A stretch of DNA of 22,599 bases from NCBI GenBank assembly GCA_030595925.1, contig JAUVLC010000033.1, positions 1 to 22,599 on the forward strand, read 5' to 3'. The position numbers were made by a program, and so were the translations under genes. The notes under the pieces were generated by a model that worked only from the letters and a program-made list of their open reading frames with translations, had not been told where the DNA came from and made no database searches. This stretch comes from Clostridia bacterium (GTDB lineage Bacteria > CBDUZB01 > JAGLHV01). Shown piece by piece: positions 8,363 through 13,521 of this stretch (positions are counted from its first letter, which is position 1; every line of letters begins with the position of its first letter).

Positions 8363-9112
8363 TCATACAAAAAATATATTATCATTAATATCTTTTTTTA
8401 AAAATATAATTCCTCTTAAAGCTAAAGAATATAAAACCTCAGATACTTCCGCCTCTGACAGACCGCTTCTTTCAACTATTTCATCTTTTTTGTTCTTTCC
8501 ATCTATTAAAAGAATTATTTCTTTTTCTCTATCAAAAAAAAGTCCTATCTGAGATTTTATTTTCTCAACAACAGTAAAAACTAAAGATTTCTTTGCAAAA
8601 ATACTGCGTTTCAATCTTTTTGCTTTTTTATTCCATAAATTTCCCTTACTGATTAAATCGTCAATATTAACAAAAAAATGTATCTTTTCTATTTTTTTCA
8701 AAAATTCATCAGATAAAAATTCCGTTTTAAACTCATAAAACCCTTCTTCCCATGTATATACATCATAAATTTCCTCCAGAAGTTGACGCTTGAGTATTTC
8801 TACAAATTCACTTTGAGAAAGAATTTTCTGTTGCATTAAAATTTCTTCCAGCGATTTATTTGTCTTACTCTGAATTTCTATTACTTCTTTTATTTTTTCC
8901 TCGGGAATATTTTTAAATCCTAAAATTATTCTGTCCAAAGATATTTTTTGGGAAGAAGAAACCCAGCATAAATTTCCTTCCTGAAAATAAAAACTTTTTT
9001 TTATTTCATCCTCACTACTTACAACAACCAAAGAACCTGTTTCTTTATTTTCCGAAAAAGTTTTTAAAATCTTACTCAAATCAACCGAATTTAATTTACC
9101 CTTAATAATCAC
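8363..9112 (-). CDS. DUF4388 (PATAN-like) protein with winged-helix-like tail
   Basis: A 249-aa cytoplasmic protein, last of the six-gene signalling module. Residues 1-130 match the DUF4388 pattern: GKLNSVDLSKILKTF, then TGSLVV, a strand pair around FYFQEGNLCWVS, and a closing WEEGFYEFKTEF. Inserted at 87-110 is a helical motif (SLEEILMQQKILSQSEF ... KRQ) of the type repeated in GspE/MshE N-terminal domains. Residues about 195-245 (DEIVERSGLSEAEVSEVLYS, then ALRGIIFL) look like a small winged helix. DUF4388 proteins are common in bacteria with gliding or complex signalling and are thought to be adaptors; no enzyme activity is expected. The start is a GTG with a purine-rich upstream stretch. 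DNA binding by the tail is only inferred. Confidence 0.8.
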   Translation of the reverse strand: MIIKGKLNSVDLSKILKTFSENKETGSLVVVSSEDEIKKSFYFQEGNLCWVSSSQKISLDRIILGFKNIPEEKIKEVIEIQSKTNKSLEEILMQQKILSQSEFVEILKRQLLEEIYDVYTWEEGFYEFKTEFLSDEFLKKIEKIHFFVNIDDLISKGNLWNKKAKRLKRSIFAKKSLVFTVVEKIKSQIGLFFDREKEIILLIDGKNKKDEIVERSGLSEAEVSEVLYSLALRGIIFLKKDINDNIFFV

Positions 9113-9198: not shown

Positions 9199-10683
9199 TT
9201 ACAAATTCATTTGCTGTAATTTATTAATTAATTTAAAGGCTTCCTGTAGATTTTTTTCACCCAATAGTTTTTTTACTTCATTTAACATATCCAGTGCCTG
9301 TTGATTTCGTTTTTCAACTGCTTTCGGAACTAAAAAATTCACTGTTTCTTCAATTATATTCATTATCCCCTGCAAATTTTTAGCACTCTTAATTTTTTGT
9401 TTAAAAATTTTTGCAACTTGAAAGTCATTCTTTCTTGTTTCCGGTTTTTTTTCAGGCAACCCTGTTTCAGTAAAAACTAAAAGATCTTTAAGCAATTCTT
9501 TTGCCATAACAAGTGTTATTTCTCCACCCTTCAATGTCAACTGGGAAATCGCAATTAACCTGTTTAAAGCCCCTTCCAATTCCCTTACACTATTAGAAAT
9601 ATTTTGTGCCAGAAAAAAAACAACTTCATCGGAAAGTATAATTTTATTTTCTTTTAAGCTAAGTTTCTTTTTTAAAATAGCCACTCTTGTTTCTAAATCC
9701 GGCGGCTGAATATCTGTTATTATTCCTCCCGATAATCTCGTTTTTAACCGTTCTTCAATGTTTTTAAACTCTCCGGGAGGACGATCACTGGTAACTATAA
9801 TTTGTTTATTAGATTGAGATAAAGCATTAAAAGTGTGAAAAAATTCTTCTTGCGCCCTTTCTTTTCCAATTAAAAATTGAATATCATCTATTAAAAAGAT
9901 ATCGTTTTCCCTGTATATTTCATGTAATTCATCTACAGTGTTATTTTTTATCGCATTAACGATATCTTTAACAAAGCGTTCTGCATTAATGTAAAAAACT
10001 TTCAGCGATGGATTTTTTTCAATTAAATAATTACCTATAGCATTCACTAAATGCGTTTTTCCTAATCCCGTATGGCTGTAAATAAACAAGGGATTATATT
10101 TACCTCCGGGAAATTTAGCTACTGCCACCGCTACTGCGTAAGTAAAACTATTTCCACTCCCTATTATAAAATCATCAAAAACGAATTTTTTTATTAAAGG
10201 AAATCCTTCCCCCCCCGAAGAGATATTCTCATCCATTTTATCGTCGATAAATTCCGGCACTGAAACGTATCGATAATAAAGAACTTTTTCAATATCTTTT
10301 TTCCGGCTTATAAAAGGCAAGATAGAATAATCCGTTATTTTTTTCAAATTTTCAATAACTTCATCACTTACGGGATCCAACATGCTTACGGCAAGAACAT
10401 TGTTTGATTTGGCAATTGGGACTACAAAAAATTTTTTTGCTATATTAGCCGGGATTTGTTTTATAACATCATTTTCTATTTTATGTTTTGCTAAGTCAAA
10501 ATAAACACAGTTATATTTTTTTTCCAAAAAATCCACCAAAATGTCTTCTAAAAGATAATCATTATTTATCAAACACGCTATATCCGTTCCTCCCTGTCGA
10601 TTACTTTCTTTCCGTGCTCTTTGAAAAGATTCCTTGGAAATAATCTTTTCATTTTGAAGAATATCACTTAATCTTTCAGCCAT
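9199..10683 (-). CDS. GspE/MshE N-terminal domain fused to a DnaA-type AAA+ ATPase
   Basis: A 494-aa fusion. Residues 1 to about 138 match the N-terminal domain of GspE/PilB/MshE secretion ATPases: two helical repeats (ERLSDILQNEKIISKESF; GTDIACLINNDYLLEDILV), then YFDL ... IPANIAKKFFVVPIA and AVSMLDPVSDEVIENL. Residues about 165-400 are a DnaA/Hda-type AAA+ core: FVFDDFIIGSGNSFTYA, Walker A SHTGLGKTH (203-211), Walker B FLIDDIQF (263-270), sensor 1 IVTSD, box VII EERLKTRLSGG with Arg312 and Arg316, and sensor 2 SVRELEGALNRL. DnaA domain IV, with its origin-binding helix-turn-helix, is absent; the tail from 410 is helical, charged and unlike DnaA. It is therefore not the replication initiator but a regulatory ATPase. 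Binding of c-di-GMP by the N-domain is doubtful because key glycines are replaced. Confidence 0.88.
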   Translation of the reverse strand: MAERLSDILQNEKIISKESFQRARKESNRQGGTDIACLINNDYLLEDILVDFLEKKYNCVYFDLAKHKIENDVIKQIPANIAKKFFVVPIAKSNNVLAVSMLDPVSDEVIENLKKITDYSILPFISRKKDIEKVLYYRYVSVPEFIDDKMDENISSGGEGFPLIKKFVFDDFIIGSGNSFTYAVAVAVAKFPGGKYNPLFIYSHTGLGKTHLVNAIGNYLIEKNPSLKVFYINAERFVKDIVNAIKNNTVDELHEIYRENDIFLIDDIQFLIGKERAQEEFFHTFNALSQSNKQIIVTSDRPPGEFKNIEERLKTRLSGGIITDIQPPDLETRVAILKKKLSLKENKIILSDEVVFFLAQNISNSVRELEGALNRLIAISQLTLKGGEITLVMAKELLKDLLVFTETGLPEKKPETRKNDFQVAKIFKQKIKSAKNLQGIMNIIEETVNFLVPKAVEKRNQQALDMLNEVKKLLGEKNLQEAFKLINKLQQMNL

Positions 10684-10782: not shown

Positions 10783-11478
10783 TTATTTTATCTGTTTAGC
10801 TATTTCCTCAACGACCTTATTTAAAGAAAAAATTAGAGACCCCAACCTGGCCAAAGGTGATGATAAAGAAACAAGAAATAATTTGCTATTAACATTAACA
10901 AAGGAAACAAATCCCTTTTCATCATTTACAAACATTTGAATAATCGACGGTCTTTTTATTTGCTTGTAATCTTTATAAAATTTCAAAAAAAGTTTAGGCA
11001 CAGATAAAAGATTCTCTTCTTTCAACTTATCATTTACTGCCTGAAAAACTATTTTCCCTTCGAAATCCACAATTACTGCCCCTAATACTTGATTGTCCTC
11101 TGTGACTAATTCTTTTAAAATTATTTCCATCTTTTCTTTCACCGGCAATTTTTTTTCTTTTTCGTTAACTTTTTGTTCATCAATTCTTTTTATCCCTTCC
11201 ATAAAAAGTTTCTGGATACTTGTCTTTATTGTTTCCTGTCCTGTATATTCACCTTTACTAAATTCAAATTCCCCTTTTTCCCACCGTAACATCTCAAAAA
11301 TAACTTCCTGCCCGATTAAACTTCCTAAAGTAGCATGAACCACTTTCCCATGCTTAAAATATAGTTTTCCTATTCCATTGTTATTTTTTACTTGCAAATA
11401 ACCTGTTTTTCCTGCCATTTCTAAAATTTGAATTGTATCAGTCAAATTAACATCTTCCAGAGAACCTCGTAAACTCAT
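10783..11478 (-). CDS. DUF4388-roadblock/LC7-like protein
   Basis: A 231-aa two-part adaptor. Residues 1 to about 100 are a clear DUF4388 domain: GSLEDVNLTDTIQILEMAGK, TGYLQV, KLYFKHGKVVHATLGSLIGQ, LRWEKGEFEF. After a charged linker, residues about 115-231 look like a roadblock/LC7 fold: VLGAVIVDFEGKIVFQAV, then two helices and FVSFVNVNSKLFLVSL. Roadblock proteins such as MglB pair with Ras-like GTPases, and an MglA-like gene lies 50 nt upstream, so this is a candidate partner or effector of that GTPase. The ATG has a strong GGGGGAG ribosome binding site. The roadblock assignment is from pattern only and less certain than the DUF4388 part. Confidence 0.78.
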   Translation of the reverse strand: MSLRGSLEDVNLTDTIQILEMAGKTGYLQVKNNNGIGKLYFKHGKVVHATLGSLIGQEVIFEMLRWEKGEFEFSKGEYTGQETIKTSIQKLFMEGIKRIDEQKVNEKEKKLPVKEKMEIILKELVTEDNQVLGAVIVDFEGKIVFQAVNDKLKEENLLSVPKLFLKFYKDYKQIKRPSIIQMFVNDEKGFVSFVNVNSKLFLVSLSSPLARLGSLIFSLNKVVEEIAKQIK

Positions 11479-11528: not shown

Positions 11529-12113
11529 TTAATTCAATTCAAACTTTTCAATAACAGACTTACAAATTACTTTTATTGTAGCAAAAACCCCCACTCCTTT
11601 AATCGCAATCGCTTCAAAAGAAGGCTTTTTATGAAGATTTACCATCTCTTCCAAATGGAAAACCGAATGTATATCAGACAAATCCCGCTTATTATATTGC
11701 ACAACACAAGGCAAGGTATCAAACTCCAAATTATATTCCTTTAATCTAAGTAAAAGTTCCTTATAGCTATTTATATTCTCATTCAATCTATCTTTCTGTG
11801 AATCAACAATAAAAACCACTCCATCCGCACCTTTTAAAATTAGCTTACGACTCGCTTCATAATATTCCTGTCCGGGAACTGTATAAAGATGAACTCGAGT
11901 AGTAAACCCTTTTATTTCCCCTAACTCCAAAGGAAGAAAGTCAAAAAATAAAGTGCGTTCCTTATCCGTCATTAATGAAATCATTTTTCCTTTATAGGAA
12001 GGCGATATTGATTGGTAAATATATTCCAGATTCGTGGTCTTCCCACCTAACCCAGGACCATAATATACAATTTTAAAATTAATCTCCCGTAAGGCATAAT
12101 TAAGGGATGCCAT
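11529..12113 (-). CDS. MglA-like small Ras-family GTPase
   Basis: A 194-aa GTPase close to Myxococcus MglA, which sets cell polarity and drives gliding and type IV pilus motility. Seen: P-loop GPGLGGKTT (19-27); MTDKERTLFFDFLP, with the conserved Arg53 that acts as an intrinsic arginine finger in MglA; switch region TVPGQEYYEASRKLILKGAD with Gln82; and the guanine-specificity motif NKRD (141-144). All catalytic positions known for MglA are retained, so an active GTPase is expected. Its ATG overlaps the stop codon of the upstream roadblock gene (TAATG), implying translational coupling and a matched GTPase/roadblock pair like MglA/MglB. The target machine is not in the window. Confidence 0.93.
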   Translation of the reverse strand: MASLNYALREINFKIVYYGPGLGGKTTNLEYIYQSISPSYKGKMISLMTDKERTLFFDFLPLELGEIKGFTTRVHLYTVPGQEYYEASRKLILKGADGVVFIVDSQKDRLNENINSYKELLLRLKEYNLEFDTLPCVVQYNKRDLSDIHSVFHLEEMVNLHKKPSFEAIAIKGVGVFATIKVICKSVIEKFELN

Positions 12114-12676
12114 TATTTTTCCTTCGTTTCTGTTTTTGTCTGCTCAATCAGGGCAGAATCCGAATCAGAAAAAATGGTATCTATTAAATTAGTAGCATAT
12201 TCTTTAAAATTCAACAATTCCAATTTCACCCTTTCTTCCTCTCTTTTCCCCCCTTTAATTAAGGATCCCGTCACTTTTTGAGATACTTCTTTTGCATAAA
12301 ACCTAACTTTTCCCACATTATTAAGATTTTCAAAAACCACCACCATCATCGCAATAGAACCTAACAAGGAAATATGCACATGCCTTTTTTCTCCCTGCTG
12401 AAGAAGAATACTAAATTCTCTCTCCCCTAAAAGAGAGGCAACCTCTTTTGTCGCCGCAAAAGACCCTGCAACCAATGCCGCCAAAGCAGTAGTATTAATA
12501 AAAGAAACATCTCCTCTACTGGTTATTAACTGCCCGTCTTTGGTAATCAAAATTATACTTATAGCCGTTGTTTTAATTATGAAGTCATCTAAATACTTAT
12601 TAATTTCTTCTATTTGAGATGAAAAAGTAATACTTTTATAGTCTCCCATCCTTCCATTATCTCCTTTTGTTATCAT
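12113..12676 (-). CDS. Roadblock/LC7-domain protein (MglB-like)
   Basis: A 187-aa protein. Residues about 20-140 match roadblock/LC7: an amphipathic helix (QIEEINKYLDDFI), strand ISIILITKDGQLITSRGD, helix TTALAALVAGSFAATKEVA, strand pair FSILLQQGEKRHVHISLLGS and MMVVVFE. In Myxococcus the roadblock protein MglB is the GTPase-activating partner of MglA; here the gene overlaps the MglA-like gene by one base, which supports the same relation. The C-terminal 45 residues are charged and probably flexible. A second in-frame ATG at 12649, preceded by AGGAG, could be the true start. It follows the AAA ATPase gene by 8 nt. Confidence 0.85.
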   Translation of the reverse strand: MITKGDNGRMGDYKSITFSSQIEEINKYLDDFIIKTTAISIILITKDGQLITSRGDVSFINTTALAALVAGSFAATKEVASLLGEREFSILLQQGEKRHVHISLLGSIAMMVVVFENLNNVGKVRFYAKEVSQKVTGSLIKGGKREEERVKLELLNFKEYATNLIDTIFSDSDSALIEQTKTETKEK

Positions 12677-12684
12677 AAAATAAA

Positions 12685-13521
12685 CTACTCTTTTCGATTT
12701 TCAATGTTTAATATTATTTTTTCCAAAACATTTTTCGCTAAATCCAATTCTATGGATTTTTTGCCTAAAAGAAAAGCTTTCAAAAATATAGCATCACATA
12801 AAACATTTATCCAAAAAGGAAAAGATATTTTATTTTTTTTATCTAACCATCCAAAAATTTTTTCTTTTATTTTTTCAGAAAAAAATTCCTTTTCGCCGCC
12901 ATATAATTCAAGTCTTTGATCAATATATCCTTTCACATCCGCTAAACCGAACGATCCCAGATGAAATTGCTTTGTTACCTCTTTTAATTTTTCATTTTTT
13001 TCTATCCACTCATTAATTAAGGATGAACCTAATAAAATAAAACTAACAATACTCCTTCCATCTTCGTCTTTTAACTCTGTCAACCGAAGCAGATTAACTA
13101 TTGCCTCTTCCCCTGCAAGATTATCACTATTATCAATTAAAAAAATTGTTTTTTCTTTTTCTTTATTATATTCCTGCTCTATAAAATCAATAACACTTTT
13201 TATTTCTTCCCCGGAAATATTAACCTGCCTTATTACTCTTTTCAGAAAAGAATCAAAATCAATCTGCTTTTTTGTAATAACTAAAAAAATAACCTTATAT
13301 TCTCTTTCTTGTTTTAACAAACTATCCAAAAGTTTTATTCCTAAAGTACTTTTCCCCGCATTCCTGTCTCCTGTAATTGTTAACAAGGAAACTTTTAATT
13401 CTTTTATTGTTTTTAAAACCTCTTTTTCTATTTTACCATTTCTATCACTCGGATAATAAGTAGTTAAATCCAAAGCGTTTTTAAAAGGCAATTCTCTAAA
13501 CCCAAAAAAGTCTTTATACAT
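12685..13521 (-). CDS. ExeA/GspA-like AAA ATPase with altered Walker B
   Basis: A 278-aa P-loop ATPase. Its N-terminus MYKDFFGFRELPFKNALDL is the ExeA/GspA signature; those proteins help secretins assemble through the cell wall, and related ATPases serve transposition and signalling. Walker A is GDRNAGKST (51-59). Walker B reads IFLIDNSDN (127-135): the metal-binding Asp130 is kept, but the following catalytic Glu, normally DE, is Asn131, so hydrolysis may be weak or absent. LLGSSL matches the sensor 1 region. No transmembrane segment or peptidoglycan-binding domain follows, unlike full-length ExeA. It is the first gene of the module, behind a promoter ending about 150 nt upstream, with a GAGGGG ribosome binding site. 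Confidence 0.85.
   Translation of the reverse strand: MYKDFFGFRELPFKNALDLTTYYPSDRNGKIEKEVLKTIKELKVSLLTITGDRNAGKSTLGIKLLDSLLKQEREYKVIFLVITKKQIDFDSFLKRVIRQVNISGEEIKSVIDFIEQEYNKEKEKTIFLIDNSDNLAGEEAIVNLLRLTELKDEDGRSIVSFILLGSSLINEWIEKNEKLKEVTKQFHLGSFGLADVKGYIDQRLELYGGEKEFFSEKIKEKIFGWLDKKNKISFPFWINVLCDAIFLKAFLLGKKSIELDLAKNVLEKIILNIENRKE

Follow-up and report, generated by a model that had tools for sequence, protein, structure and literature searches.

A DnaA-type AAA+ core fused to a PilB-like MshEN domain: a candidate ATP-dependent switch of pilus-type machines

We report a family of proteins in which the AAA+ core of DnaA is joined to an N-terminal MshEN domain of the kind found in the pilus-assembly ATPase PilB. 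From their gene context, they are best read as ATP-dependent assembly switches predicted to act on a pilus-assembly ATPase, and not as replication factors; more specifically, we give a probability of roughly 0.55 to the proposal that they are DnaA-derived AAA+ switches of the type IV pilus (T4P), or of a related pilus-type machine, which license or block the engagement of PilB. DnaA is regarded as the protein that initiates replication, and proteins closely related to it as regulating replication or loading the helicase. In open-licence papers searched for MshEN with DnaA, Bac_DnaA with pilB, DnaA with MglA or PilB, and DnaA paralogues, this family is not described. The member from which the analysis proceeds is encoded on contig JAUVLC010000033.1 of a Clostridia bacterium (assembly GCA_030595925.1), the entire 22,599-nucleotide stretch of which was analyzed and is referred to below as the window.

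Domain architecture of the fusion protein

The fusion gene (9199..10683, minus strand) is an ORF of 494 amino acids with an ATG start, immediately upstream of which lies a purine-rich stretch, aaaagggtaggtg. Its N-terminal region (residues 1-140; 10264..10683, minus strand) is a MshEN domain by both profile and phmmer matches: the Pfam MshEN model matches residues 58-135 (E 5.6e-12), the PilB model TIGR02538 covers residues 5-145 (E 1.2e-15) and solved PilB chains match residues ~1-148 in phmmer searches (best E 1e-15). In the predicted structure a four-helix MshEN_N (helices 2-11, 17-30, 34-40 and 46-57) is followed by MshEN_C; the fold is assigned by sequence, as the prediction drew on DnaA homologues for the core only and the model has a pLDDT of ~65-78 for most of MshEN_N and ~50 or less, i.e. 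low confidence, for MshEN_C. The proposal of the initial annotation that a GspE/MshE-type domain replaces domain I of DnaA is upheld by these matches and by a search for DnaA_N (domain I, PF11638) in the window protein that returned nothing even at E<=1; a check of residues 1-138 for lack of a GspE N-terminal fold instead gave profile matches to it.

The DnaA-type AAA+ core (domain III; residues 161-404; 9472..10203, minus strand) is recovered by Pfam, phmmer and structure alignment: Bac_DnaA matches residues 165-324 (E 2.1e-64), Bacillus subtilis DnaA (8btg) aligns with residues 163-407 (E 7.6e-77), and a VIA-align superposition on 8btg_C gives a Z of 27.9 with an rmsd of 2.1 over 240 residues. 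The core has, encoded on the minus strand, a Walker A SHTGLGKT (residues 203-210; 10054..10077; GLGKT at 206-210), a Walker B IFLIDD (residues 262-267; 9883..9900; DD at 266-267), a box VII RLKTRLSGG (residues 312-320; 9724..9750), in which both R312 and the arginine finger R316 are kept, and a sensor 2 RELEG (residues 367-371; 9571..9585; R367 in RELEGALNR), along with sensor 1 TSD at residues 298-300. Every AAA+ motif listed in the initial annotation is thus present. The core shares these motifs, as well as the initiator-specific helix, with domain III of DnaA (8btg, 8bv3, 2z4r; ~50% identity, Z 27-28); the fusion protein differs from DnaA in being without domains I and IV, in the replacement of the box VII Trp and in the loss of the equivalents of Asn187 and Thr225, and the family further differs in its gene context, which is either pilus or mgl.

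The absence of domain IV, claimed at the outset, also stands: Bac_DnaA_C (PF08299) has no match in the window protein even at E<=1, whereas the ordinary DnaA of the same genome, encoded near an rnpA-like ORF on a different contig, returns domain IV at 1.1e-29 and domain I at 2.3e-17 with the same library. The DnaA equivalog model TIGR00362 scores the window protein at 331.1 bits, under its cut-off of 343.9. The protein shares with the assembly ATPases PilB, MshE and GspE an N-terminal domain of the same MshEN family but differs from them in having the DnaA AAA+ core in place of the T2SSE motor domain (PF00437), which is absent by Pfam. The C-terminal tail (residues 405-494; 9199..9471, minus strand) is predicted to form four helices, with no domain IV helix-turn-helix among them. 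Searched against the PDB it gave no informative fold, only generic four-helix-bundle neighbors (best E 0.47), and a Pfam match to PIG-S (E 0.004, under the cut-off) was set aside as chance. The tail is seen only in the window's genus and does not resemble the extended helical regions of the G152 proteins described below.

Selection and phyletic spread

Orthologs of the fusion gene are present in two congeneric genomes (87% and 71% identity), with the same neighbors as the window copy on the readable parts of the contigs. Its dN/dS is ~0.2 for the whole gene and ~0.09 for the AAA+ core; the neighboring genes have values in a similar range. Given the congeneric orthologs and the low dN/dS, the fusion gene is a real, selected gene and a product of neither chance nor decay.

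A profile built from the first six members and run over 386 genomes detected the full MshEN-DnaA architecture in eight of them, distributed over three phyla: three belong to the window's genus, three are all the sampled genomes of a second phylum (G026, G041 and G042; below, the G026 phylum), and two (G152 and G289) are among the three sampled from a third. Three other phyla were surveyed in addition, with 68, 6 and 44 genomes, and none of these yielded a member at the strict threshold; scans of viral contigs with the MshEN part and with the tail found no relative, and in a whole-protein scan of genome contigs the best 80 loci matched over the DnaA core, with no named fusion relative surfacing. 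Such rarity might be expected if the fusion had arisen by chance or were decaying and had no function in its own right; against this, the purifying selection on the core, the conservation across three phyla and the intact active-site residues render that explanation barely credible.

Association with type IV pilus operons

The initial annotation had suggested that a replication-initiator motor has moved into a membrane-machine context, and the gene neighborhoods bear this out: the relatives in the two other phyla occur in T4P operons with pilB, while the window copy lies beside mglA and mglB. In all three sampled genomes of the G026 phylum the fusion gene is directly upstream of pilB, which encodes a MshEN + T2SSE protein, with gaps of 19, 30 and 157 bp; pilB is followed by pilT, genes for a PilS-type kinase and a PilR-type regulator, and pilC, and the opposite side of the fusion gene is occupied by genes for a histidine kinase and a sigma-54 regulator. 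Elsewhere in this phylum (L136:3512-8752) we observed a 1746-residue protein with two Bac_DnaA domains and no pilus genes nearby in the stretch that was read.

The third phylum shows a more elaborate arrangement: in G152 the operon opens with a pilin-like gene and the prepilin peptidase gene pilD, after which come four tandem MshEN genes, three of them with Bac_DnaA. The first codes for 983 residues comprising MshEN, an AAA-like stretch, a helical region and Bac_DnaA; the second (436 residues) has no ATPase domain by Pfam and, by eye, a decayed AAA+ domain without a P-loop; the third is a MshEN-DnaA protein of 409 residues; and the fourth is a MshEN-DnaA protein of 1993 residues that has, in addition, a second Bac_DnaA and an extended helical region. 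Next come a TonB_C gene and pilB, and further along pilT, pilC, pilS, a second pilT and pilR. The first six genes are the same in G289, where the contig then ends, and G152 has an additional MshEN-DnaA copy elsewhere in its genome. In the members from these two genomes the arginine finger has changed from Arg to Gly in the short proteins and is kept in the long ones, a pattern of loss and retention that suggests hetero-assembly between them.

The mgl neighborhood of the window copy

In the window the fusion gene belongs to a same-strand run in the order AAA_22 ATPase, mglB, mglA, DUF4388, MshEN-DnaA, DUF4388, all on the minus strand. The mglA gene (11529..12113; 194 aa) encodes a Ras-like polarity GTPase matching MglA 6hjh at 1.3e-66, with the same gene order in genome G001, and mglB (12113..12676) encodes the roadblock GAP of MglA, matching MglB 6hjm at 3.3e-19, with an NF052242 match under the cut-off; judged by sequence, both identities are unambiguous. 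Domain searches assign an ATPase of the ExeA/PEP-CTERM type with an AAA_22 domain to 12685..13521 and DUF4388 proteins to the two genes flanking the fusion, at 10783..11478 upstream (E 3.4e-25) and 8363..9112 downstream. The downstream DUF4388 protein ends in a winged-helix-like region and contains half of a MshE-type c-di-GMP motif, a weak match of 27 bits against a cut-off of 38.

This linkage to mgl occurs in one genus only, with mgl genes on the same contig in two genomes. The genomes of the G026 phylum gave no MglA match, while G289 and G386 each have one; thus, MglA is not a general partner of the family. The mglA reading frame of G289 (L200, G289:C39:3505-4080) contains one internal TGA. 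In Myxococcus, T4P are controlled by a polarity switch consisting of mglA and mglB. There, MglA acts through SgmX and brings PilB to the leading pole (PMC11580455). The likeness of the window cluster to this MglA-SgmX-FrzS-SopA pathway, which recruits PilB (PMC11580455), lies in the presence of mglA and mglB beside the fusion gene; it differs in that SgmX is a TPR protein and no SgmX-like TPR gene was recognized in the cluster.

The window copy lies outside the pilB operon of its genome: pilB-pilT is on another contig, and the genome also encodes other pilT-type ATPases and a set of type II secretion genes (named from sequence and a T2SSE search). Both this placement outside any pilus operon in the window's genus and the availability of a type II secretion system would suit a general signaling ATPase with a non-pilus output, e.g. 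secretion or exopolysaccharide, for which the T4P and mgl neighborhoods are simply regulatory company. So would the known versatility of the domain: the fusion-listing section of PMC5013675 gives many outputs for MshEN, among them REC, HD-GYP, CheA and kinases, and names none with DnaA. In the two other phyla, however, the gene sits in mainly-pilus operons directly or shortly before pilB, and we regard the non-pilus reading as rather unlikely. Operon membership alone may leave PilB, PilT, secretion or DNA uptake as the target. On the strength of gene context, we consider a pilus-machine role of the family probable.

Divergent fates of the c-di-GMP site

The capacity of the MshEN domains to act as c-di-GMP receptors was assessed by the tandem RLGxx..LxxxLxxQ motif, with 12 key residues, as defined in PMC5013675, and by the model NF053729 (cut-off 38 bits). 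Four proteins from two phyla score above this cut-off (40-67 bits): those of G026 and G042 and two from G152. Of the 12 key residues, the long members from G152 and G289 have 12 and 11, their spacer being 7 and not 5; both G041 and G042 have 10. The window MshEN has four of the 12 and no match to NF053729 at E<=0.05. The motif is gone from the window protein, and therefore this copy is probably not a c-di-GMP sensor in the known way; c-di-GMP control has probably been lost in the window's genus. Hence, the idea in the initial annotation of a nucleotide-sensing regulator holds for those relatives in which the motif is intact and fails for the window protein itself.

Retained ATP switch and lost DNA-reading residues

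We compared 12 AAA+ cores from MshEN-DnaA proteins, using 57 ordinary DnaA proteins as the reference for the box VII Trp. All 12 keep the Walker A Lys, both Walker B Asp residues and the sensor 2 Arg, and nine keep the arginine finger. The residues of DnaA that touch DNA show a different picture. Asn187 of B. subtilis DnaA reads adenine, and its change to Ala causes a severe growth defect (PMC10721633, from which the roles of Asn187 and of the arginine finger are taken); its equivalent is lost in 11/12 family cores. The equivalent of Thr225 is Ala or Val in every one, and the box VII Trp, present in 47/57 ordinary DnaA proteins, is Gly, Ala, Thr or Asn in 12/12. The DnaA-trio readout residues Asn187, Arg202 and Glu228 correspond to K239, H254 and E280 of the window protein, two of the three being lost; across the window's genus the Arg202 position is His or Gln. 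The backbone-contacting Lys222 position is Lys or Arg in 10/12 cores. Judged from these residues, the ATP switch is conserved and origin-DNA reading is not.

These observations bear on the possibility that the protein is a subunit of a DNA-uptake pilus, in which the AAA+ spiral, located at the foot of a transformation T4P, would hold the single-stranded DNA being taken up. The T4P context and the basic residue at the Lys222 position are compatible with such a role; the losses at the Asn187 and Thr225 positions, together with the His or Gln at the Arg202 position in the window's genus, speak against it, as does the lack of recognized com genes in the T4P operons that were read. We therefore consider DNA uptake decidedly improbable.

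Origin of the fusion

A careful tree of AAA+ cores unites the window's genus, the long members from G152 and G289, and three other paralogs without domain IV (support 100/99). In the same tree, searched freely, the long-branched members, namely those of the G026 type and the short ones of the G152 type, split off, so that there is no single MshEN-DnaA clade; both a quick tree and a held tree do show one. Constraining the MshEN-DnaA proteins and the three domain-IV-less paralogs to stay together gives a best tree that improves on the free search by 13.6 log units (p-AU 0.74). The MshEN halves, for their part, are set apart by a branch (85/95) from PilB domains, those of their own genomes included. 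On account of the held AAA+ tree and this MshEN branch, a single old fusion for both halves is favored by the phylogenies, though not proved. The tree does not place the window core beside the DnaA of the same genome, and a recent fusion derived from that DnaA was discounted for this reason.

The distance in the tree between the fusion core and the DnaA of the same genome also weighs on the notion, raised in the initial annotation, of an Hda-like factor. As such a regulator, the protein would meet ATP-DnaA with its arginine finger and either stimulate hydrolysis or block the orisome, with MshEN tying initiation to cell state. It does resemble Hda (TIGR03420) in having a DnaA-type AAA+ core, intact and with its arginine finger, but no domain IV, and polA, fpg and rho are found further along the same strand. 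Nevertheless, it scores only 90 bits with the Hda model against a cut-off of 194.8, it bears a PilB-type MshEN that sets it apart from Hda, its DNA-reading residues are lost, and its relatives are in T4P operons and not with replication genes. We accordingly rate the replication-factor proposal as markedly unlikely and favor that of a pilus-machine switch.

The surveys also brought up other unusual DnaA-like proteins. The window genome has a second DnaA paralog (contig C180, L174:3233-5362), of 709 residues, without domain IV and with an unrelated N-terminal region; its gene adjoins gcvH and is two genes from one for a pilT-type ATPase. Paralogs of this type form a clade common to two other families, and in G241 they are likewise near pilT and a glycine cleavage cluster. 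In the tree, some of the MshEN-DnaA proteins group with very long paralogs from G014 (L172:8458-14856; 2132 residues, with a TPR array and, by Pfam, a Bac_DnaA at the C-terminus) and G302 (L173:4480-9732; 1750 residues, with a C-terminal DnaA-like core). Two DnaA-like proteins of ~350 residues (L118:1474-2532 and L120:1192-2265), with an AAA+ core and a domain-IV-like end but without domains I-II, adjoin a GspE/PilB-type gene. Finally, a 619-residue protein (L177:6729-8588) has an N-terminal Bac_DnaA and a hydrophobic, membrane-like C-terminal end, and its gene adjoins ABC-transporter genes resembling a gliding-type set.

A mechanistic proposal and its implications

For the proposed switch of a pilus-type machine we offer the following scheme, the particular docking, assembly and gating steps of which we rate at slightly under even odds. 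The N-domain of PilB is proposed to point toward the stator or platform (PMC11656802), and for this reason the PilB-like MshEN domain is predicted to dock on the PilB/PilM platform, contacting either the pilus-assembly ATPase itself or the inner-membrane platform that binds the N-domain of PilB. The ATP-loaded cores would then assemble in an arginine-finger-dependent manner, as in DnaA, and the state of this putative oligomer would license or block PilB engagement and thereby affect pilus extension. In lineages with an intact MshEN site the input would be c-di-GMP. In the window's genus it is more likely to come from MglA/MglB and the DUF4388 proteins, by analogy with the action of Myxococcus MglA via SgmX. 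A precedent for MshEN regulating a non-secretion output is presented by NfrB and other MshEN fusions (PMC5013675).

A bolder and tentative extension, which we ourselves hold to be doubtful, is that these proteins constitute a new class of the DnaA family: an ATP-gated, c-di-GMP- or MglA-controlled collar of origin-type AAA+ assemblies on the pilus-assembly motor. The tandem paralogs of one phylum, some without an arginine finger or a P-loop, might then reflect a division of labor like that of ORC or clamp loaders.

If the proposed role is correct, an initiator-type ATP switch would have been taken over for a membrane nanomachine, and pilus biology would have, besides PilB and PilT, another kind of ATPase. 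It would also offer a testable answer to the question of how MglA signaling reaches PilB in Myxococcus-type polarity.
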